From assembly GCF_014648275.1 (NCBI RefSeq), contig NZ_BMQU01000003.1, forward strand, positions 62,001 to 126,000: DNA of 64,000 nt, given 5' to 3'. The stretch comes from Pseudomonas laurentiana (GTDB lineage Bacteria; Pseudomonadota; Gammaproteobacteria; Pseudomonadales; Pseudomonadaceae). Positions 4,138-53,801 of the stretch are shown in pieces; within the stretch, counting starts at the first letter, position 1; each line of letters begins with the position of its first letter. A program made the position numbers and the translations under genes. The notes beneath the pieces are model-generated. The model made no database searches. It was not told where the DNA came from and worked only from the letters and a program-made list of their open reading frames with translations.

Positions 4138-5889
4138 CTATGCGGCGTTAGCTTGGAATTGGCTGATCCTCCAAGGATCGTTGGCCCTGGCTAGCGCAGC
4201 CATAGGCGGTGGGCTGACGCTGTTGCCGCACATATGCACCTGCTCGGTCTTCGTGAATGGCTTGCCGTCGGCGCCTTTGTCGATGATGTAGTCGGCCGGG
4301 AAACCCTGAGCTCGGTAGAGCTCATGCGGCTGTAGCATCCGCAGGCAGATGTCGACGATTACGTATGGCGTGCCTCTGACATGCACGGTCACTAGGCCGA
4401 GCCGGTCCTTGGTGGTAACTGTTGGTGCCGGTTGATTGGCCGCACTGGTGTTCTCAGTGCCGTAGTAGCTGATCAGAAATGCGGCCACGCGCAGCGCTCC
4501 AGCTTCCTGCTCAGGCGACAGTTTCAGCTCCACCAGTGAACTCTTGCCGCCGCCTCCAGCGGTGATGGTTGGGGCCGGCTCATCCAGTGCCTGGCCAACA
4601 CTCGCGCCAAACTGCCGCTCCATGAAGGCCGTCATCAATCCATGATGGGTACCGCCAGCACTGATGGTATGCAGCGGGTCTGTCGCGTCCCTCGCATCAC
4701 AGTTGCCGCGCAAGTGAACCAAGTTTGCCGTCACTAGCTGTTGCTGGCTGCCAGTGTTGGTCACCGTGGTCATTGGCTCGTCGATGCCCTTGGCGTCGGT
4801 GGTGTTGAAGCCGCCATTCATCTGGGCCATTAAGGCCGTGACTTTGTCGCTCGCCTGATGTGTGGCTGGCGCCATTACCGGGCTAGCCATGGCAAAGCTT
4901 CCGCCCCGCGGCCATGACGTGATGGTGCGCAACGGCTCCTGAGCAGACTGAGCAAGCTCACCAGACCAGTTCGCAATCGGCACAATGAATGGCTGCGGGT
5001 TGTCGATGACGAACTTCTTCAGCCCCTTGGCGACACGACGTAGGGTGGCTGGTGCCAAGTCTTTCTTGCGGCCGAAGATGCTCTTGCTCGGTACCGTCCA
5101 GTCGATGCAGTCGGCTGCGGTACGCCACTTCTGCTGGCCCTTGGCGGGCTTCTTGGCGTGGGTGGGCTCCGGCCAGACGATGGGCTGGCCATCGCAGCGA
5201 GCGATCATGAACAGCCGTTCCCGGCTGGTTGGAGCGCCGAAGTCGCAGGCCTTAATGATCTGCCACTCGACTACGTAGCCCATTCCCTCCAGAAGAGTGA
5301 CAAACCGGCGCCAGGTAATGCCCCGACGCTTAGGGTCTGGCACCAAGAACTGCTGCTGGACCGGCACGCGCTCACCTGGTGCAGCAATGCTGCCATCCAG
5401 CTTCATCACTCTACCGGTTGCCTTGTCGCGCTTCGCCATCAGCGGACCCCATTGCAGGATCTGCTTCACGTTCTCCAGGCTGATCACCCGGGGCTTCTTC
5501 TTGCCTGCCCACTTCAGGCCGATCCATGAAAGGTTGCGGATCTCGCGCTTGCGGGGCTGGCCGCCAGCGGCCTGGCTGTGGTGTGTGCAGTCCGGGCTCA
5601 TGTGGAACCAGCCCACAGCACGACCGCCGCATTCTTCGTCAGGATCACCCTCGAACACGTCGGTGGTGAAGTGCTTGGCGTGCGGGTGGTTGGCGGTGTG
5701 CATGCTGATCGCTGCCGGGTTGTGGTTCTTGGCCACGGTAACAGGCCGACCAAGACCCATCTCCAGCCCGGTACCGGCGCCGCCACCACCGCAGAAGAAG
5801 TCGACCACGATCTCATCATCTTGCGGATTGAGGCCCAGTCCGTACTGGGTTTTGAAGTCGAAGGCGGGCTTTTTCTGAAATGCAGACAT
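4138..5889 (-). CDS. C5-cytosine DNA methyltransferase with repeated target-recognition region
   Basis: 583 residues. Motif I is VVDFFCGGGGAGTG (29-41). The catalytic cysteine is in SPDCTHHS (C101), an unusual motif IV in place of PPCQ. Motif VI is SLENV (about 137-141) and motif VIII TSRERLF (about residue 217). The C-terminal half holds five imperfect units of the form (E/Q/D)P-x-x-T-(I/V)-(T/S), about 30-45 residues apart. It is followed by a PHELYRAQGFPADY...GNSVSPP ending, typical of motifs IX-X. It probably modifies phage DNA against host restriction; specificity is unknown. Confidence 0.9.
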   Translation of the reverse strand: MSAFQKKPAFDFKTQYGLGLNPQDDEIVVDFFCGGGGAGTGLEMGLGRPVTVAKNHNPAAISMHTANHPHAKHFTTDVFEGDPDEECGGRAVGWFHMSPDCTHHSQAAGGQPRKREIRNLSWIGLKWAGKKKPRVISLENVKQILQWGPLMAKRDKATGRVMKLDGSIAAPGERVPVQQQFLVPDPKRRGITWRRFVTLLEGMGYVVEWQIIKACDFGAPTSRERLFMIARCDGQPIVWPEPTHAKKPAKGQQKWRTAADCIDWTVPSKSIFGRKKDLAPATLRRVAKGLKKFVIDNPQPFIVPIANWSGELAQSAQEPLRTITSWPRGGSFAMASPVMAPATHQASDKVTALMAQMNGGFNTTDAKGIDEPMTTVTNTGSQQQLVTANLVHLRGNCDARDATDPLHTISAGGTHHGLMTAFMERQFGASVGQALDEPAPTITAGGGGKSSLVELKLSPEQEAGALRVAAFLISYYGTENTSAANQPAPTVTTKDRLGLVTVHVRGTPYVIVDICLRMLQPHELYRAQGFPADYIIDKGADGKPFTKTEQVHMCGNSVSPPPMAALARANDPWRISQFQANAA

Positions 5890-5933
5890 AGGCGTTCCTC
5901 GCCGCGGTGGCGTGAAGGTTGAAATGGAGAGGG

Positions 5934-6884
5934 TTATTCGCAGAGGCCGTAGGCCGAAGAGCAGCTGTTTTGGCTATCGGTGCGAGCGATCAGGTTGATC
6001 ATGTCGAACTGGCGCCCGCCGCGACTTGTGTTGGCCCAGTCCACCATGCGGTCTATGCCGTGGGTTTCGGCGCTGACCTTGTCGTCTGATCTGACGGTAG
6101 GGTCGGTGACGGTGGCGAAGAACGTGGCTGCGCCGCGCTTGCTGGCGATGCTGACCAGTCGCTCCCACTCGCGCACCCGAGAAACCTCCTCAGGCCACCT
6201 GGTGGCGATTTGGCGCAACTCATCCTTCGCGCACATGATGCAGGGCATGCATCCGACGCGATTGCAGCCCTGCAGATAGAGCGGGTTGGGCTTGATTCCC
6301 GCGGCCCGGTGCGCTTCGAACACTGCATCGACGGGCCACTTGAGGATGGGCCGGTAGTTGAACAGGCCGCCGCCGACTTCGTCGCACTCGGGCAGGTATC
6401 GCCTGCTCAGCGACTCATCAGCTCGCACACCCTGCCAAGACAACACCAGGTTCTCGCCAGTCATCAACGGCAGAAACACGTCCTCGATGATCGGGTTGCG
6501 CTTCAGCTCATCAGTGCAGAAGCGTGCTTTGGTGCTGGGAAATCGGCCTTTCCAGAGGCACATATCGAGGAAAGGGTTGCCGGTGGGGTGCAACACCCCC
6601 AGGGCGGCCAGCACCACTGCTTCGGGCACTCCCTTCTCGCGCCACTTCGTTTCAATGAACTTGCGCTTGCCGGCGATCTGCCGTGCAAAGTCGGCTTTTA
6701 CCCAGCGGATATCTATGCCCGTGGCGTCGGCCAGGTAATGCACGTAGTCATAGGTGGCTGGGTGTTCGTGCCCGGTGTCTGCAAAGACGGCGCTTAGGTT
6801 CGGCACCTCCAGCTCGCGGGCGAACAGTAGGGTGGCCGTGCTGTCTTTACCGCCGCTCATGCTGACGATGTTGTGTTCGGCCAT
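5934..6884 (-). CDS. PAPS reductase-family (PP-loop) phage enzyme
   Basis: 316 residues from MAEHNIVSMSGGKDSTATLL, with the ATP-pyrophosphatase P-loop SGGKDS at 10-15. Cysteines lie in FCTDELK and in a CMPCIMC cluster that may bind metal or an Fe-S cluster. The family includes PAPS reductase and DndC. Phage members are common but mostly uncharacterised. It lies just upstream of the C5 methyltransferase in the same direction, so a nucleotide or DNA-modification role is possible. No dndB/D/E partner is present. Confidence 0.82.
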   Translation of the reverse strand: MAEHNIVSMSGGKDSTATLLFARELEVPNLSAVFADTGHEHPATYDYVHYLADATGIDIRWVKADFARQIAGKRKFIETKWREKGVPEAVVLAALGVLHPTGNPFLDMCLWKGRFPSTKARFCTDELKRNPIIEDVFLPLMTGENLVLSWQGVRADESLSRRYLPECDEVGGGLFNYRPILKWPVDAVFEAHRAAGIKPNPLYLQGCNRVGCMPCIMCAKDELRQIATRWPEEVSRVREWERLVSIASKRGAATFFATVTDPTVRSDDKVSAETHGIDRMVDWANTSRGGRQFDMINLIARTDSQNSCSSAYGLCE

Positions 6885-7029
6885 TGTGTGGTCCTTGCGT
6901 GCATGCGCCGCCCTCGCCGGGGTGGCGTGATTCGTTGAGGTCGGGAGGTCTTTTTCGGGTGGCGCACGCGCCATTCGCTTCGCAGGACATATCGCCGGCA
7001 TAATTCGCGTTGTGATTGGAGAGCTGCTG

Positions 7030-10259: not shown

Positions 10260-10445
10260 TCAGGCGGCTTCTGGGCTGCGCTTCTCAGCCTGGATGCGTT
10301 CGTAGATCTCTTCGCGATGCACGGCAACGTCTGCCGGCGCCGCGATTCCCAGCTTCACCTGCTGGCCATGGACGCTCAGCACGGTCACGCTGATGTCGTC
10401 ATTGATGCGGATGGTTTCGCCAATACGGCGGGTGAGTATCAACAT
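10260..10445 (-). CDS. csrA: CsrA/RsmA-family RNA-binding regulator, prophage-encoded
   Basis: 61 residues, full family length: [20 protein letters not shown] then [24 protein letters not shown]. The RNA-binding edges are intact: the N-terminal LTRR strand with R6/R7 and the VHREEIY segment with R44. CsrA homodimers bind GGA motifs, usually in hairpin loops, and repress or stabilise mRNAs. A prophage copy could retune the host Gac/Rsm network or phage mRNAs. GGA hairpins at 50765 and 50951 are candidate targets. Confidence 0.93.
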
Positions 10446-12758: not shown

Positions 12759-13064
12759 ATGACCGAGATCATCCGAAGCGAAACGTTCTCTACTTGGCTC
12801 TCCGGCCTTTCGGATAGTCGCGCCAAGATGCGCATCATCACCCGCATAGATCGCTTGGCCGATGGCAACCTCGGAGACGCCAAGCCCATTGGTGACGGCC
12901 TGAGTGAGGCGCGCATCGACTACGGCCCAGGCTACCGGGTGTATTTCATGCAGCAAGGTCGGCAACTGATCATCCTGCTATGTGGCGGCGACAAAAGCAG
13001 CCAGCCCCGTGACATCAAACAGGCTAAGCAGGTCGCAAAGGCCTGGAAGGAGCAAAATCTATGA
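12759..13064 (+). CDS. higB: HigB/RelE-family toxin (phage Gp49-like addiction killer)
   Basis: 101 residues, usual length: MTEIIRSETFSTWLSGLSDSRAKMRIITRIDRLADGNLGDAKPIGDGLSEARIDYGPGYRVYFMQQG then LLCGGDKSSQPRDI. The basic and aromatic residues of the RelE fold (K/R around 23-30, R52, Y59, R60, K79) are kept. Family members cleave mRNA on ribosomes. The gene precedes its antitoxin, as in HigBA modules, and overlaps it by 4 bases. It would stabilise the prophage. Confidence 0.9.
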   Translation: MTEIIRSETFSTWLSGLSDSRAKMRIITRIDRLADGNLGDAKPIGDGLSEARIDYGPGYRVYFMQQGRQLIILLCGGDKSSQPRDIKQAKQVAKAWKEQNL

Positions 13065-13357
13065 GCGAACAATTCTCCCGCTGGGATTCTGCCGAATACC
13101 TCAAGACAGAAGAGGATATCGCCAACTACCTGGATGCTTGTCTGGAAGAGGCGGGCGACGATCCAGCCTTCATTGCCAAGGCGCTCGGCACTATTGCTCG
13201 CGCTCGAGGCATGACCCAGGTGGCGCGTGACGCGGGATTGTCTCGGGAAAGTCTATACCGCGCCCTTTCTGGCGAGGGAAACCCAGAGTTCGGCACAATC
13301 CTCAAGGTGGTCAAGGCGCTTGGTCTGAAGCTGCACGCGCAGCCGGCGCACCCCTAG
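13061..13357 (+). CDS. higA: HigA-type antitoxin with helix-turn-helix
   Basis: 98 residues, start in an ATGA overlap with the toxin stop. The N-terminus (about 1-40) would wrap the toxin. The C-terminal half is a Cro/CI-type HTH (GMTQVARDAGLSRESLYRALSGEGNPEFGTILKVVKALGL), as in addiction-module antidote proteins. It should bind the TGTAGC/GCTACA operator upstream of the pair and repress it together with the toxin. Confidence 0.9.
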   Translation: MSEQFSRWDSAEYLKTEEDIANYLDACLEEAGDDPAFIAKALGTIARARGMTQVARDAGLSRESLYRALSGEGNPEFGTILKVVKALGLKLHAQPAHP

Positions 13358-13854: not shown

Positions 13855-13882
13855 AAAAAGCCCACAGAGGCAGACAGTGGGC
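13855..13882 (-). terminator. Leftward terminator after the Dam-type methyltransferase
   Basis: Read leftward, GCCCAC-N11-GTGGGC is followed by UUUUUC, 16 bases after the methyltransferase stop at 13898. Together with 13754-13779 it closes the nuclease-methyltransferase unit. Confidence 0.85.
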
Positions 13883-13897
13883 CCTGCCTTTCGAGCT

Positions 13898-14776
13898 TCA
13901 AGCTACAGTGGTGGCCTTTGGAATCTCGGCATCAGGAATCTGGAGGCTATTCTTGAAGAACATCACTTCGTCGCCGACGTACCTGGCCTGGGCAGTGTAG
14001 TGAAGGCCATATTTTAGGGCTTCGGTCTTACTGTACATTTCGCAGATTTGGGGAGCATTGTCGTAGGACACTACCCATTGCCTGTTGAATTCCGATAACT
14101 GGAGCAGTTGAGCGATTTGGAGATGGTCGTCGTGCTTGTAGAAGTTTCGATATAGATCGCGGCCCTTCACATAGTAGGGAGGATCTAAGTAGATCAACGA
14201 GCGGTCTGGGAGCAACTCCGACACCTTGCTCAAGAGGCTATACGCATCCTCTTGGTGGACCGTGATGCTGTTTGTATGCAGGCCGATGCGCTCAAGCCTC
14301 GCCGCGATCATTTCTTTATTGAATCGAGCATCGAGCTTGTAGGTACCAGTTTGAGCCTTACCTCCGATAACGCCCCCTTTGAGGATTCCAGAGCGGTTGG
14401 TCCGATTGATGAACAGGGTGGCGAATCCCTTCTCAGTAATGGACAGATCTGGATCTTGTGCAAGCATCACTTGGCGTAGGCGATACCATTCATCCATTGT
14501 GATAGGAGTGTCATAGAGGAGCCTTAACAAGCCCTCAGGATCCGACGTCGCAGCGGACCAAAAAGCATGCACCGCAGGGTCTAGGTCGTTGATGTGGATG
14601 TGGCTTGCATGGCCATCGAACAGAAGCTCAAGCGCTACACCTGCACCGCCAGCAAACGGCTCAAGGTAATGACCGCCATCCAAGCCATTGGCTCGCATCA
14701 CCTCGGCGATGAACGGCGCAAAACGCGCCTTGCCACCAGGGTAGCGTAACGGACTGTATAGCTTGTTGGAATACAT
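13898..14776 (-). CDS. Dam-type (alpha-class, D12) DNA adenine N6-methyltransferase
   Basis: 292 residues. The family signature YPGGK is at 12-16, the SAM motif YLEPFAGGAGVALE at 37-50, FINRTNRSGI at about 122-131, and the catalytic DPPY at 198-201 (YLDPPYY). Motif I before DPPY gives alpha class; many relatives methylate GATC-like sites. It lies 81 bases downstream of the OLD-like nuclease in the same direction. A possible own promoter (-10 TATACT, complement of 14823-14828) lies in the gap. It may mark self DNA for the nuclease or be an independent modification gene. Confidence 0.9.
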   Translation of the reverse strand: MYSNKLYSPLRYPGGKARFAPFIAEVMRANGLDGGHYLEPFAGGAGVALELLFDGHASHIHINDLDPAVHAFWSAATSDPEGLLRLLYDTPITMDEWYRLRQVMLAQDPDLSITEKGFATLFINRTNRSGILKGGVIGGKAQTGTYKLDARFNKEMIAARLERIGLHTNSITVHQEDAYSLLSKVSELLPDRSLIYLDPPYYVKGRDLYRNFYKHDDHLQIAQLLQLSEFNRQWVVSYDNAPQICEMYSKTEALKYGLHYTAQARYVGDEVMFFKNSLQIPDAEIPKATTVA

Positions 14777-14857
14777 CTGGTCTCTTCCTTTGAGGCTTTC
14801 AGACCTCAGTTTAACGGCGCGCAGTATACTTGGCCAGCCTCCGGTTGGCGTTGTGTA

Positions 14858-16612
14858 TCATGCTTTTTTTGCTTCGACCGGAGGATCAAGGGCCCTCAGC
14901 ATTGCGGGATCCACTCCGTGTCCGCCGCTCATCGTGTTTTGAAGGCTTGACCGCACACGTGAGCGGAAATCCTCGACCGCCTCAGTATTGTGTTTTACCC
15001 ACGCTCTGTATGGATTTTTTGCTGCGCCGCCGTTAACCATGCTCAAAAATGTAGTGTCATTCGCAAAGTTTTTGAAATGACTTCTCAATCTCTGGTCTTG
15101 TGGCGTAGATCTAGCTTTATGGCTTTCAATAAGTGCGAACAGGTCTATCTCGGTATTAGCAGGATCGATCTGAAGGGTCTCAGAAATTTTTTCGCAAAGA
15201 GTCATAAAGACAGGCTTGGTAAAGCCAATATTGTTTTTCCAATACGAGTCATTCGGAGGTAGGTTGAACAGGAATTCAAAAATTAACTGGTCTGGCGGCA
15301 GTCTCCCCGGTAGCTTCAAAATACTGTCCATTCCTTTTACGCCTTCTACATCGCCATCTAATACAATCAGACTTCGAGTGGAAAACTCGGGGATTTTCCT
15401 CTTGACGAGTTTTATGTATTCTGTGCAGCCTAATGCTACGTCTTTAAGGGGGTTGGTTACTTTTTTAATTGTTCTATCAGTTATTATTGCAGAGTAGAAA
15501 TCGAAAGCTTCTTTGTCTTCGAAATAAATATTAATTTGCGGAAGTAAGTTGGTGTCTACTGGAATTGTTTGTACATGTAAATCAGCAAATATTTGAGGCC
15601 AGGTCACGTTTTCCTGGATTCTTATGGGGCCAAAAGTGTCGCTTAAATAAATATTTTGATAATTTTTTTCGTCTGCTGCAGAGAGTTTTTGAATGTCCTC
15701 AATCATCGTTGGAGAGTGAGAGGTCATTATGACTTGCAGGTTCAGTTTTTTACATTCGTCTGTCAGTATCTTGATGAGTTGACGCTGTGCAGCAGGGAAG
15801 AGACCTGCGTCAGCCTCGTCAATCAACAGTAATCCGCCTTTATAATCCGGGTATTCTTCTGCAAGCTTACGGAACGAAAATAGAGCTAGTAATATTTGTC
15901 CTGCGTTATCTTCTCCTGCTGATACTGAGTCATGATCGTAATTCGTGCCGTGTGCAGCAGCAGATTTAATCGTGCCAGTGGTCGCGGTAACAGAAGTTGC
16001 GGACCTTTTACTTAAAAGTTTATTGCTGAGAGATACAAACTCGCGTTTATTTTTCGAGAGGAAATCAATGTCATGTTCAGAGTATTTAGCGCGTTGAGAT
16101 ATGGGTGTAAGCCTTTTTAAACTGAGGTATATCACCGGGTGCGTAGCGTTTCGGCTGGTATTTTCGCCGTCTGCTAGGGTGTTACCTCGAACGATAGGTC
16201 GCGGCTTGTTTCTGTCCTTTGAATCATAGAGCTTTAGGGTAAGGTCAACATCTTCAGCTGTATAGCCATCATGAATCGAGACCGATGTATTCATGGAGTC
16301 TGGCTGGTCGAATTTTTTCGACAATCGAAAATGCTCAGAAACTCGAGACTCAAACTTTGTTCCGGTTAGCGTTCGGAATTCTAGTGGTGTATCTTTCGTG
16401 TAATCTTTTTCGAAGCTGAATACTTGTGCGGCTATGCCAAGAATGGACGATTTCGATGTCCCGTTTTTCCCGCATAATAAGGTTATCCGCTTTCCTAAGG
16501 GTACTGTAAGGTCAGATAATCCTCGGAATCGGACGATATTTATTTTACTCAAGTATGTGGTGCTGTTATCGCCTTTGTTTGCGCCCAATTTCAGCTTCCC
16601 TGCATTTTTCAT
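14858..16612 (-). CDS. OLD-like AAA ATPase with C-terminal TOPRIM nuclease domain (candidate defence gene)
   Basis: 584 residues. Walker A is GKNGTSKSS (48-56), the ABC signature SAGEDNAGQ (about 231-239), Walker B LLLIDEA (261-267), and the switch histidine is in MTSHSP (about 299). After residue 360 a TOPRIM-like pattern follows: NIYFEDKEAFDFY (E365) and LIVLDGDVEG (D419, D421). This single-chain ATPase-TOPRIM layout is that of P2 OLD and class 1 OLD nucleases. The gene is conspicuously AT-rich for the prophage. It lies between OL and OR with a Dam-type gene downstream, in the place of lambda rexAB. Confidence 0.82.
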   Translation of the reverse strand: MKNAGKLKLGANKGDNSTTYLSKINIVRFRGLSDLTVPLGKRITLLCGKNGTSKSSILGIAAQVFSFEKDYTKDTPLEFRTLTGTKFESRVSEHFRLSKKFDQPDSMNTSVSIHDGYTAEDVDLTLKLYDSKDRNKPRPIVRGNTLADGENTSRNATHPVIYLSLKRLTPISQRAKYSEHDIDFLSKNKREFVSLSNKLLSKRSATSVTATTGTIKSAAAHGTNYDHDSVSAGEDNAGQILLALFSFRKLAEEYPDYKGGLLLIDEADAGLFPAAQRQLIKILTDECKKLNLQVIMTSHSPTMIEDIQKLSAADEKNYQNIYLSDTFGPIRIQENVTWPQIFADLHVQTIPVDTNLLPQINIYFEDKEAFDFYSAIITDRTIKKVTNPLKDVALGCTEYIKLVKRKIPEFSTRSLIVLDGDVEGVKGMDSILKLPGRLPPDQLIFEFLFNLPPNDSYWKNNIGFTKPVFMTLCEKISETLQIDPANTEIDLFALIESHKARSTPQDQRLRSHFKNFANDTTFLSMVNGGAAKNPYRAWVKHNTEAVEDFRSRVRSSLQNTMSGGHGVDPAMLRALDPPVEAKKA

Positions 16613-16760
16613 ATTTGTAGATTTACCAACAACACCGGAAACTAAATTTAGGTGTTGTCATTCAACAATCTAAACTTTGCTTTGCTATCAAATCAATTTT
16701 ACGCCTGCTTAGTATACTCCGCCAATCGATCCTCCCTAGCTATCATCACCTGAAAGATCC

Positions 16761-17015
16761 TCATTCCGGCACGGAGACAGGTGTCTTCGTACGAACAATC
16801 AGCCCCAGGTGCGCTTCCTCTGCATATCCAGTAAGCCTTTCCTCACCATCCTGAAAGATGCGGCACATCCTCAGCACGGCTTGGGCATCAGCATCATTCC
16901 CGGCCAAGCTTAGGCGCTCAGCGATTCGTAGCAGCTCAACCGCTGACCACTTCAGGTCAGATGCAAGGCCTTGGAGGTTGCGGCGTAGTTCTTGGCTCGA
17001 TTTATCCAGAGTCAT
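16761..17015 (-). CDS. Tandem small paralogue C (downstream of cI)
   Basis: 84 residues from MTLDKSSQELRRNLQGLASDLKWS. It shares with the next two upstream genes the pattern QEL(R/H)-x-x-L-x(5-7)-(K/E)W-x(4)-(E/D)L...A-x-x-L/I...AG...I-x-x-x-E-x-L-x-x-(Y/C)A-(E/D)-(E/D). The start overlaps the stop of paralogue B in an ATGA. Helical throughout; the C-terminal extension (TKTPVSVPE) is unique. Function unknown. Confidence 0.75.
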   Translation of the reverse strand: MTLDKSSQELRRNLQGLASDLKWSAVELLRIAERLSLAGNDADAQAVLRMCRIFQDGEERLTGYAEEAHLGLIVRTKTPVSVPE

Positions 17016-17245
17016 TCCTTTGTCCTCGTTACTCGGCCAGCCTTCACCTCTTCCGCATACCCCTCCAGCCTGTCCTCAATCTCCTGAAAGGCCAGAGCGA
17101 TTTTCATCAGCTCGTTCGCCCCATCTTCGTCTCCCGCTGCGAGTAGCTTTTTGGCGAAAGTGAAGAGGTCGACACCGGACCACTTGAGGACAGCCGCAGC
17201 ATCTCTCAGGTCGCGGCGTAGTTCTTGATTGGGCTTCGTGGTCAT
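17012..17245 (-). CDS. Tandem small paralogue B (downstream of cI)
   Basis: 77 residues from MTTKPNQELRRDLRDAAAVLKWS. It is closest to paralogue C (shared QELRR, LKWS and EGYAEE/TGYAEE segments) and has ATGA overlaps with both neighbours. Three small helical segments, no cysteines, no catalytic motif. The tandem arrangement implies local duplication within one mRNA that probably starts at cI. Confidence 0.75.
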   Translation of the reverse strand: MTTKPNQELRRDLRDAAAVLKWSGVDLFTFAKKLLAAGDEDGANELMKIALAFQEIEDRLEGYAEEVKAGRVTRTKE

Positions 17246-17478
17246 AGTTCTTTCCTGCAGATCAGTCCATCCAGAACGTCATCAGCGCAGGAGTAGAGCA
17301 CTTCTTGCTCAATCCGGAGTTCCTTGCTGATCCCCATCAGTTCCATAGCCTCGTCGGGCAGCCCCGCATTGTTGATGCGCTTGGCTATCTCTATCAGCTC
17401 AAGCGCCGCCCACTCCATGATGGATGCGGATCCTTCAAGTTCTGCGTGGAGCTCTTGGTCGGGTTTGGTGGGGCTCAT
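17242..17478 (-). CDS. Tandem small paralogue A (first gene after cI)
   Basis: 78 residues from MSPTKPDQELHAELEGSASIMEWAALELIEIAKRINNAG. It is the most divergent of the three, keeping QEL, EW, the AG turn and the C-terminal EVLYSCADDV. The start is 14 bases after the repressor stop (17493), so cI and the three paralogues read as one lysogenic operon. Candidates for superinfection exclusion or immunity modulation, by position only. Confidence 0.75.
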   Translation of the reverse strand: MSPTKPDQELHAELEGSASIMEWAALELIEIAKRINNAGLPDEAMELMGISKELRIEQEVLYSCADDVLDGLICRKEL

Positions 17479-17492
17479 GAGGCTTTCCTTGC

Positions 17493-18215
17493 TCAGAGGC
17501 GGCCAAGAACTTTGCTTGGGGCCAGGATGGTGCCGACGTAATGGATGGTCTCGATGTCGTCCCAGGCAACGGTCCTGCGCTCACCATAGGCTGCATTCAC
17601 TGACATTAGACTTACGCCGTCTTCGCTTTCAAACAGCAACTCTTTCACCATGCTCTGACCGTCAGTGGTCGTAACCATGACGTATTCGCCAGGCACAAGG
17701 CGGTGATTCGGCTCGCAGACCGCCACCCAGCCGCTACGAATTGCGGGTGCCATAGAGTCGCCCTTCAGGCGCAGAGCGTAAGCATCTTCGTCCCTTGACC
17801 AGGTCTCGACCCAGCCGGCGGAATTATCTAGCCCAACCCAGTAACCGTCGGTGCCAAGTTGCGCGGTACCCACGATTGCGATCCTTCGTGTAGGTGATGT
17901 GATTGGAGGACCTGGCTCAACGTTAGCCTCCAAACTAGAGCGAGCCATCTGGGCGATTTCTTTAGCTAAGCGAGGGCTGAAAGAATCCACGGGCCTCGAA
18001 ATCAGTCCCGCAATGACACTGGCAACCTTGGCATTCAGGGCGTTATAGCCGTTCAAGTAGGCGCTGACAGACCCTTGGTTGATCCCAAGCGCATCTGCAA
18101 TTTTTCCTTGAGTGAGGCTATCGCGACGAGGTTTACCTTCGTTGAAGGCGTCCACTGCCGCTTTTAGCGCTAAGCACTCGGCCTTTTCCCACTCTTCAAG
18201 TTCGCGTTTTTTCAT
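17493..18215 (-). CDS. cI: CI-type prophage repressor (HTH plus S24 LexA-like peptidase)
   Basis: 240 residues. An N-terminal HTH (about 33-60: SLTQGKIADALGINQGSVSAYLNG) is followed by a linker and an S24 domain with catalytic Ser154 (GDSMAP) and Lys191 (SMVKELL). A canonical Ala-Gly cleavage site is not obvious; IAIVGTAQ at 112-119 is in the right place. It is divergent from cro across 18232-18290 and should repress pL and pR until RecA-stimulated self-cleavage. The short gap to the start suggests a leaderless or near-leaderless mRNA from pRM. Confidence 0.93.
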   Translation of the reverse strand: MKKRELEEWEKAECLALKAAVDAFNEGKPRRDSLTQGKIADALGINQGSVSAYLNGYNALNAKVASVIAGLISRPVDSFSPRLAKEIAQMARSSLEANVEPGPPITSPTRRIAIVGTAQLGTDGYWVGLDNSAGWVETWSRDEDAYALRLKGDSMAPAIRSGWVAVCEPNHRLVPGEYVMVTTTDGQSMVKELLFESEDGVSLMSVNAAYGERRTVAWDDIETIHYVGTILAPSKVLGRL

Positions 18216-52175: not shown

Positions 52176-53801
52176 GTGCGGTTAAGGAATATGAAAATCG
52201 GCAAACGGGCAGCGACCGTGTTTGCGCTGTTAGGTGTCCTAGTGCTAACCATGGGGCTGCTCTCGCTGTACGAGACCAAGCAGATGGACTCGGCCATGGA
52301 CGAGGTCCGCGTCAACTGGATGCCAGCGGTTGTCTCGCTAGGTGATGTCAGCCGCAACCTCGGCAGAGCCCGGGCACTGACGCTGCGCAGCGTTCTCGAG
52401 GAGCAGGCCGAAGCACGGCAGGCTACGCTGGTGAAGATCGTCAAGATCAACGAGGAACTGCAAAGCAGTATTAAGGCCTATGAAGGCACCATAATCGACA
52501 AGGACAGCCGTGCGCTGTTCGATGCCTTCATCGCACTGAGCAATCGCTACCACGGTCTGCAGAAGTCAATCCGCGAAGCCGTCGCCGCCAATCAGATTGA
52601 AGAAGCCCGACGCTTGGTCAACGGCCCCTTGGCTGAATACGCTGACAGCATGATGAAGGCCCTCTCTGCGCTGATCGAATACAACGCCCAAGGCGCCGAG
52701 CAGGCCTCACAGCGTACCAGCGATGTATTTGATCAGGCGTTCTCGCTCATTATTGTCTTGCTGGTTGTGATCATGCTCGCCCTGGTCGTGATCGCGACCC
52801 TGCTGACGCGCAGCATCATCGTGCCCTTGGCCGACGCTGTGGCCGTGGCCGAGCGAGTAGCTGTCGGCGATCTGACCTGCGAGATCGCGGTCACCGGTCG
52901 CGACGAGCCAGCCTTGCTGTTACGTGCCCTGCGCCAAATGCAGGAAAGCCTGCGCACTACAATCCGCCAGATTGCCGCGACCTCCGATCAGTTGGCCTCG
53001 GCCTCGGAAGAACTGCACTCCGTCACCGAGGATACCGGTCGTGGTCTTCACCAGCAAAGCGCCGAGATTGAGCAGGCAGCTACTGCAGTCAACCAGATGA
53101 CCGCTGCCGTGGAGGAAGTGGCCAATAATGCGGTAAGCACCGCCGATGCGTCCAAGGGCGCCGACCAGACGACCCAGGATGGCCGAAGCCAGGTCAACCA
53201 AGCCTTGGCCTCAATCCAGCATCTGGTCAATGATGTCACTGGTACCTCTCAGGAAATCGAACAGTTGGCCAACAGCGCCAATGAAATCAGTCACGTGCTC
53301 GACGTGATCGGTGCCATCGCTGGGCAGACCAATCTGCTGGCCCTCAACGCTGCCATCGAAGCGGCTCGCGCCGGAGAAGCCGGTCGTGGCTTCGCCGTGG
53401 TCGCCGATGAGGTCCGTGCCCTCGCTCATCGCACTCAACAATCAATCGAAGAAATCGAGCAGATGATCGGCAGCATACAATCCGGTACCGAACGTGCGGT
53501 TAGCTCGATACACGCCAGTAAGGGCCGTGTCAACGGCACCCTGGAGGTGGCCCAAGCCGCTGGGCAAGCTCTGGAGGTGATCGCCGAAGCCATCACATCG
53601 ATAAACCAGCGCAACCTGGTGATCGCCAGCGCCTCGGAACAACAGGCTCAGGTGGCCCGTGAGGTGGACCGCAATCTGGTCAACATTCGTGACCTGGCCA
53701 CTCAGACCTCCGCCGGCGCCAACCAGACCAGCGCTGCAGCCCAGGATCTGTCGCGCTTGGCCGTGGAGTTGAACGGTATGGTCGCCAAGTTCAAGGCCTG
53801 A
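52176..53801 (+). CDS. Methyl-accepting chemotaxis protein, 4HB-type sensor
   Basis: 541 residues from a GTG with AAGGAG seven bases upstream. TM1 is at about 12-32, a helical periplasmic 4HB_MCP-type domain (TKQMDSAMDEVRVNWMPAVVSLGDVSRNLGRARALTLRSVLEEQ) follows, then TM2 (about 190-212), HAMP and the MA signalling domain. The hairpin tip ISHVLDVIGAIAGQTNLLALNAAIEAARAGEAGRGFAVVADEVRALA is intact. The protein would signal to CheA/CheW; ligand unknown. A terminator follows. A chemoreceptor as cargo of an integrative element is unusual. Confidence 0.95.
   Translation: MRLRNMKIGKRAATVFALLGVLVLTMGLLSLYETKQMDSAMDEVRVNWMPAVVSLGDVSRNLGRARALTLRSVLEEQAEARQATLVKIVKINEELQSSIKAYEGTIIDKDSRALFDAFIALSNRYHGLQKSIREAVAANQIEEARRLVNGPLAEYADSMMKALSALIEYNAQGAEQASQRTSDVFDQAFSLIIVLLVVIMLALVVIATLLTRSIIVPLADAVAVAERVAVGDLTCEIAVTGRDEPALLLRALRQMQESLRTTIRQIAATSDQLASASEELHSVTEDTGRGLHQQSAEIEQAATAVNQMTAAVEEVANNAVSTADASKGADQTTQDGRSQVNQALASIQHLVNDVTGTSQEIEQLANSANEISHVLDVIGAIAGQTNLLALNAAIEAARAGEAGRGFAVVADEVRALAHRTQQSIEEIEQMIGSIQSGTERAVSSIHASKGRVNGTLEVAQAAGQALEVIAEAITSINQRNLVIASASEQQAQVAREVDRNLVNIRDLATQTSAGANQTSAAAQDLSRLAVELNGMVAKFKA

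Follow-up and report, generated by a model that had tools for sequence, protein, structure and literature searches.

A conserved prophage pair of an OLD-like ATPase and a PD-lambda-5_B-family adenine methylase as a putative defence unit with an exchangeable effector

A 64,000-nucleotide stretch of the Pseudomonas laurentiana genome (contig NZ_BMQU01000003.1, positions 62,001 to 126,000; hereafter the window, by whose positions features of this DNA are located) carries two adjacent reverse-strand genes within a prophage, at 13898..16612. One (14858..16612) encodes a 584-residue OLD-like ABC ATPase with a TOPRIM-like C-terminal half, a candidate effector, and the other (13898..14776), beyond an intergenic gap of 81 bp (14777..14857), encodes a 292-residue D12-class N6-adenine DNA methyltransferase of the PD-lambda-5_B family. 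Direct computation shows that the genes are paired and conserved, that the methylase is linked, that partners are exchanged, and that the ATPase and acidic motifs are kept, and the two genes are a genuine conserved unit that co-occurs far beyond the host genome (5.2 Mb in 223 contigs). Judged by its sequence, the unit is of PD-lambda-5-like type, with an OLD-like effector in the place of PD-lambda-5_A, and the pair is probably a guard of the lysogen host against other viruses.

The ATPase retrieved 70 viral loci, 62 of which have a methylase nearby; seven others end at or inside the ATPase gene, at a contig edge, and were set aside from the linkage count together with a single weak match (L101). 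The methylase lies downstream on the same strand in 56 of the 62 linked loci, is convergent in three and upstream in three, and 57 distinct ATPase–methylase pairs are represented. The pair is also present in bacterial relatives (L007–L009), Citrobacter phage phiNP, an Acinetobacter record, and Escherichia coli prophages, and the pairing extends to a Streptococcus phage. The E. coli form, searched with a two-gene query from an E. coli relative, was found in 85 of 5,426 genomes, with all 85 places covering at least 80% of the query, and the 60 E. coli entries listed among them are all annotated with both genes. The first-pass annotation of this DNA had proposed an OLD-like ATPase linked to an adenine methylase as a unit, a view borne out by matches to AAA_15 and phrog_3940 and by the linkage in 62 of 70 loci; the concern that the two genes might never co-occur in other genomes falls away, since the pair was found in viral, bacterial and E. 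coli loci.

Methylases of the PD-lambda-5_B family were found neither in the eight loci of remote ATPase kin (L111–L118) nor in 30 OLD-TOPRIM loci of about 3.2 kb each. It is highly improbable that the pair consists of two independent cargo genes, an OLD-like gene acting in exclusion by itself and a methylase with an epigenetic or anti-restriction role: both gene kinds do occur singly elsewhere, and the methylases of L107 and L108 have neither known partner, yet the linkage holds in 62 of 62 loci with a neighbourhood and at 85 of 85 E. coli places, but in none of the 38 and none of the 30 loci of the two control sets. As a separate observation, two of the remote kin, in L112 (4814–9156; matching HEC-04 at 2.1e-44) and L114 (4341–9198), lie near long ORFs (open reading frames) with DPPY/NPPF motifs (999 and 723 residues, respectively), perhaps representing other ATPase–methylase pairings.

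The pairwise identities of ATPases and methylases are correlated (r 0.79; 2016 pairs of 64 loci, reduced from 76 by the removal of identical pairs). The ATPases of L016 and L017 share about 24% identity with the rest, whereas their methylases still show 58–71% identity. Comparison of the window with L032, L034 and L011 gave proportions of synonymous differences (pS) of 0.72–0.88, near saturation, and of nonsynonymous differences (pN) of 0.07–0.18 in both genes. Both genes are under purifying selection, as indicated by low pN against near-saturated pS; among closer locus pairs, the ratio of nonsynonymous to synonymous rates (dN/dS) was 0.04–0.16.

The methylase matches Pfam MethyltransfD12 at 2.8e-17, above the curated cut-off, and the PADLOC model PD-Lambda-5_B at 1.7e-112 over residues 5–285; a generic Type II methyltransferase model also matches, at 7.1e-100. 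The YPGGK motif (residues 12–16) and motif IV, DPPY (residues 198–201; 14174..14185, reverse strand), are invariant in 33 aligned sequences. The enzyme had been described as Dam-type; it is indeed an adenine methylase of the D12 class, but Dam proper was rejected, as the TIGR00571 score is 45.9 bits against a cut-off of 114.85 and an alignment with E. coli Dam shows 17% identity, and the family is instead PD-lambda-5_B. Because of this match, half of the unit, which the first-pass annotation had listed as a candidate uncharacterised defence unit, is already known from the tested defence system PD-lambda-5. According to the accessible part of Vassallo 2022 (PMC9519451), PD-lambda-5 defends against phages in a test host without the mrr region and is described as a compacted restriction-modification and abortive infection system, with a mechanism that is suggested only. 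The mrr deletion would fit a methylase whose mark Mrr would attack.

PD-lambda-5 and the window unit share the methylase family PD-lambda-5_B, a two-gene arrangement and a prophage setting, and their relatives swap effectors. They differ in the partner: PD-lambda-5_A, three examples of which had no Pfam match, has no detectable kinship to the ATPase. Membership of PD-lambda-5 in the strict sense was rejected, since no PD-lambda-5_A partner was found: a profile built from relatives had no match in the 64-kb window, and two of the 25 PADLOC PD-lambda-5_A models matched nothing in the genome itself, the same searches matching no control genome either.

The exchange of partners was observed by scanning the best 80 of 571 methylase relatives, of which the top 42 were used for the partner count and the other 38 as a control. 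Thirteen of the 42 best viral loci contain the ATPase, 27 PD-lambda-5_A (by a profile started from three PADLOC-named seeds and extended with these 42 loci), one both, and one neither (L161, with the methylase at the contig start); of the 38 remaining loci, mostly with different D12 methylases, none contains either effector. In eight records examined in the phage collection, the methylase is accompanied by PD-lambda-5_A in L104, L105 and L106 (PADLOC), by the ATPase in L001 and L103, by both in L004, and by neither in L107 and L108. Altogether, both effectors accompany a single family methylase in six loci, of which two are near-duplicates. These locus counts do not equal independent events, because L157 and L159 share contigs with L066 and L058, and L153/L154 and L092/L093 look near-duplicate.

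A tree of 83 methylases, from 124 dereplicated at 90%, requires at least eight partner changes over 77 labelled rows, six of them forced by branches with at least 95% support in the Shimodaira–Hasegawa-like approximate likelihood ratio test (SH-aLRT), while shuffled labels need 23.9; the tree came from a quick search and has some long branches, and the loci with both effectors (L004, L071, L083, L092, L174) were left out of the count. The methylase of L083 adjoins a PD-lambda-5_A, which bears on the contrast between L049 and L083. The methylases of L156, paired with the ATPase, and L160, paired with PD-lambda-5_A, are 81% identical. The methylase is the steady component of these loci and the effector is the exchanged one.

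Some of these loci show arrangements of their own. The ATPase, PD-lambda-5_A and methylase genes of L174 (1238–5388) stand in a row on one strand. The ATPase gene of L004 (4001–8028; Vibrio phage ValB1MD-2) is convergent with the methylase gene; behind the latter come two overlapping ORFs with matches to PD-lambda-5_A, which represent an A protein that is split or in two parts. The Vibrio phage methylase of L107 (4866–6245) is convergent with a 459-residue ORF without a match to PADLOC models or either effector profile, a possible third partner.

Ordinary restriction-modification, with the ATPase-nuclease reading the methylase site and cutting unmethylated copies with no abortive step, draws on the company of methylase and effector in 62 of the 70 fetched loci, the remainder being contig ends or weak, and on the correlated identities of the two proteins. 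It is nevertheless unlikely, since the unrelated PD-lambda-5_A occurs beside methylases up to 81% identical, so that each of the two effectors would have had to acquire site reading, and since most tested OLD nucleases, with the exception of GajA, cut without sequence specificity according to the accessible part of a review (PMC10568477).

The methylase segment of residues 118–152 (NRTNRSGILKGGVIGG..Q.G.YKLDARF; 14321..14425, reverse strand), with its nine invariant columns and its alignment to Dam, is a putative DNA-recognition hairpin. It is the highest-conserved stretch in the ATPase-labelled rows, with a mean of 0.82 compared with 0.49–0.62 outside motif IV, and its nine columns are identical in 51 of 51 rows initially labelled ATPase and in 30 of 30 PD-lambda-5_A rows; the initial ATPase-only label covered L004, L071, L083 and L092, which also hold PD-lambda-5_A. 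Its counterpart in E. coli Dam, which we take to be the GATC-contacting part, aligns with the segment but has different residues. From this pattern we infer a target site that would be common to the methylase family, whichever the partner, and that is probably other than GATC.

The 584-residue protein contains all the features of an ABC ATPase: Walker A, signature, Walker B, and H-loop. In an alignment of 37 ATPase sequences, including the window protein, G48, N50, G51, T52, K54 and S55 of Walker A (GKNGTSKS, residues 48–55, 16448..16471), S231, G233, D235 and N236 of the signature-like SAGEDNAGQ (residues 231–239, 15896..15922), and I264, D265 and E266 of Walker B (LLLIDEA, residues 261–267, 15812..15832; all on the reverse strand) are invariant. 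Both ORFs lie where the first-pass annotation had placed them, on the same strand, and the motifs it quoted are exact (GKNGTSKSS at 48–56, SAGEDNAGQ, LLLIDEA, E365, D419 and D421 in LDGDVEG, YPGGK, and DPPY). The ATPase and methylase motifs are more than chance resemblances, because Pfam AAA_15 (6.4e-19) and MethyltransfD12 exceed their cut-offs, and phrog_3940, to which no function is assigned, spans ATPase residues 19–562 at 1.2e-160, near full length; AAA_21 also passes its curated cut-off.

PADLOC models gave 136 partial matches to the ATPase, headed by AriA, HEC-04, PDC-M38A and GajA and mostly confined to the ATPase core, and the 10 neighbouring ORFs had no PADLOC match of any kind at 1e-3. 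The best match, PARIS AriA at 8.8e-20, covers residues 183–304 only. PARIS membership was rejected, as the matches of the AriA and fused AriAB models reach no further than the ATPase part and no AriB was found in the 10 neighbours. A PARIS-like trigger, whereby the effector would sense a phage protein such as a methylase or nuclease inhibitor and the methylase would serve as bait or be guarded instead of making a self mark, could appeal to this best match and to the triggering of PARIS by an anti-restriction protein, as given in the accessible part of PMC9122126. It is distinctly unlikely, since the AriA match is limited to the ATPase part, as with many such ATPases, and the invariant DPPY and YPGGK are catalytic motifs that bait would not need.

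Beyond the ATPase core, a TOPRIM-like core may be recognised at residues 358–441 (15290..15541, reverse strand), with E365-D366-x-E368, D419-x-D421 and LPG...D441. E365, D366, D419 and D421 are invariant in 37 of 37 aligned close relatives and in 26 of 26 more distant ones, and the ED pair (365–366) and DxD (419–421) are kept in all 27 rows of a wider alignment, the Streptococcus phage protein included. The OLD TOPRIM rows taken for comparison have VEGxxE followed by DxD about 50 residues on, a spacing similar to that of the ATPase family. A hidden Markov model (HMM) of the ATPase family aligns with L111, which itself fits the ATPase-Toprim_I-B model (7e-42), over model positions 248–472, with ED on ED and LDGD on LDGD, at an i-Evalue of 1.2e-13 that refers to a small pre-selected protein set and to which the Walker B part contributes.

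The first-pass annotation had assigned a TOPRIM-like end to this protein. The invariant acidic residues and the in-register L111 match speak for that assignment. Against it, when the I-B model is compared directly with the window protein, the match extends no further than residue 309 and does not reach the acidic residues, and the C-terminal half matched neither PDB sequences nor Pfam, nor OLD TOPRIM profiles, even when the last comparison was repeated with OLD TOPRIMs of greater diversity and alongside three control segments. A profile of the C-terminal half gave no result against L111 alone, and wide genome searches with the I-B model found little. Because of this combination of kept residues, one match and negative comparisons, we call the C-terminal half TOPRIM-like.

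The retron type I-B ATPase-Toprim effector, a class 3 OLD protein, has an ABC ATPase and a TOPRIM domain in one chain, as the window protein may have, its member L111 aligning through the ED and DGD columns. Membership of retron type I-B was rejected, as no reverse transcriptase match was found in the 10 neighbouring ORFs, non-coding RNA being outside that search. P2 Old (class 1 OLD) is also a prophage-borne ATPase of the OLD kind whose Walker B region aligns with that of the window protein (hhalign probability 47%), but it is a single gene without a methylase, and 50 columns align, in the ATPase part only. Gabija GajA matches the ATPase partially, at 1.1e-16; membership was rejected, with no GajB helicase in the 10 neighbouring ORFs. 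Where Gabija and PARIS have a helicase or a separate nuclease gene, the window unit has a methylase. WonAB, as described in the accessible part of PMC12137116, combines a prophage OLD-ABC ATPase with a required PD-(D/E)xK nuclease gene; it resembles the window unit in having such an ATPase and a second gene, and differs in that this gene encodes a nuclease, a methylase not being mentioned in that part of the source. The PADLOC candidate HEC-04 matches the ATPase at 3.2e-19, its best stretch covering residues 259–307 only, and MADS MAD3 matches weakly (0.00015; 21.1 bits against a cut-off of 420).

The OLD review, in its accessible part, lists classes that either lack a partner or have a helicase or a retron as one, and does not mention 'methyltransferase' or 'methylase' (PMC10568477). 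The accessible part of PMC6945700 reports that the OLD protein PA1939 of P. aeruginosa was found independent of the methylase PA2735. No report of an ATPase paired with a PD-lambda-5_B-family methylase was found in the open-access literature as far as its text was accessible, with REBASE, DefenseFinder, preprints and most subscription papers outside the scope.

We propose that the pair provides prophage immunity in which a methyl self mark is read by an exchangeable ATPase-TOPRIM effector, and give this mechanism a probability of about 0.5. The methylase would mark host and prophage DNA with N6-methyladenine, at a site common to the family, and the ATPase would stay quiet on marked DNA. Unmarked invading DNA, or loss of the mark during infection, would switch the ATPase on, and the TOPRIM-like centre would then cut nucleic acid, with the result that the phage is blocked or the infected cell is killed. 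Methylation activity, a shared site, gating by the mark, its trigger, nuclease action and defence are what we infer here; a mark serving as the self/non-self signal, with effectors of different descent acting on its absence, is the simplest account. The position of the pair in the lysogeny region of the prophage also favours this mechanism.

Several observations weigh against the proposal. Linkage alone cannot separate gating from joint carriage in a hotspot, and the conservation of segment 118–152 could have a structural cause. Neither PDB and Pfam nor OLD TOPRIM profiles yielded a match to the C-terminal half, and the I-B match stops short of the acidic residues. Family methylases stand without either partner in L107 and L108 and, at a contig edge, in L161, and a contig-end fragment of a family member among the 38 control loci (L197), with 4.5 kb upstream free of a partner, is a possible exception. 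The ATPase is broken and the methylase intact in L087 and L097 (2 of 62), the reverse being seen in 0 of 62, numbers too few to argue from. Finally, both genes were absent from the 193 other host relatives searched (E limits 1e-10 and 1e-30).

As an addiction module, in which the methylase or its mark would neutralise a toxic nuclease, the pair would mainly prevent prophage loss; no effector occurs without a methylase in viral loci where room existed, and the pair lies beside integrase or repressor genes in annotated loci. We consider this very unlikely, as the related PD-lambda-5 protects against phages (PMC9519451, accessible part) and a protective role would give the same linkage, the two readings not being exclusive.

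Genes for terminase, portal, tail sheath, tape measure and integrase mark the surroundings of the pair as a contractile-tailed prophage. The upstream neighbours of the pair, on its own strand, are an S24/helix-turn-helix repressor (17493–18215; Pfam and phrog matches) and, between it and the ATPase gene, three small tandem ORFs that are phrog_6388 paralogs (16761–17478, reverse strand), so that the first-pass comparison with the place of rexAB is a fair one. A promoter-like match (9/12; 16696..16725, reverse strand) precedes the ATPase gene, the region containing five such sites against 4.0 (standard deviation 2.0) in shuffles, no excess. A terminator had been said to close the unit: a hairpin with a T run is present 3' of the methylase (13855..13884, reverse strand), but such sites are no commoner than in shuffles (8 versus 5.6, standard deviation 2.4).

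The ATPase gene is AT-rich, as first noted, with 43.0% G+C; the window as a whole has 58.4% and the methylase gene 52.3%. Its recent acquisition, which had been read from this composition, was rejected, for the ATPase genes of relatives are equally AT-rich despite near-saturated synonymous sites, those of L007, L010, L011, L032 and L034 having 42–46% G+C in loci of 55–56%. Low G+C is a lasting trait and therefore no sign of recent arrival.

Other genes were noted in the window. The left arm of the same prophage contains a second DNA methyltransferase (4138–7001; 583 residues, phrog_116, 6.9e-103) adjoined by a phosphoadenosine phosphosulfate reductase-like protein (phrog_424). Just past the methylase of the pair and facing it, a Gp49-like protein and an HI1420-type antidote form a probable toxin-antitoxin pair (12759–13357, forward strand). 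A 61-residue ORF (10260–10445, reverse strand) resembles by eye what we presume to be a phage-borne CsrA, and a 541-residue protein (52176–53801, forward strand) corresponds to phrog_8572 (1.2e-123), to which no function is assigned.

The unit would extend the OLD-like nucleases by a branch linked to a methylase; the partners given for them in the accessible part of the review are a helicase or a retron (PMC10568477). Tools of the PADLOC type would see half of it, and could miss the unit or file an orphan methylase. Two unrelated effectors with one methylase family, often swapped and sometimes together, suggest the methyl mark as a common interface, and it can be asked whether the same site is marked with different partners and whether one methylase makes either effector tolerable. 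More tentatively, one N6-adenine methylase family might write one conserved self mark into which unrelated effectors, PD-lambda-5_A, the ATPase-TOPRIM protein, or both, plug as executioners. If this is true, immunity would be organised around a shared licence readable by any effector, and phages would swap killers while leaving the mark unchanged.

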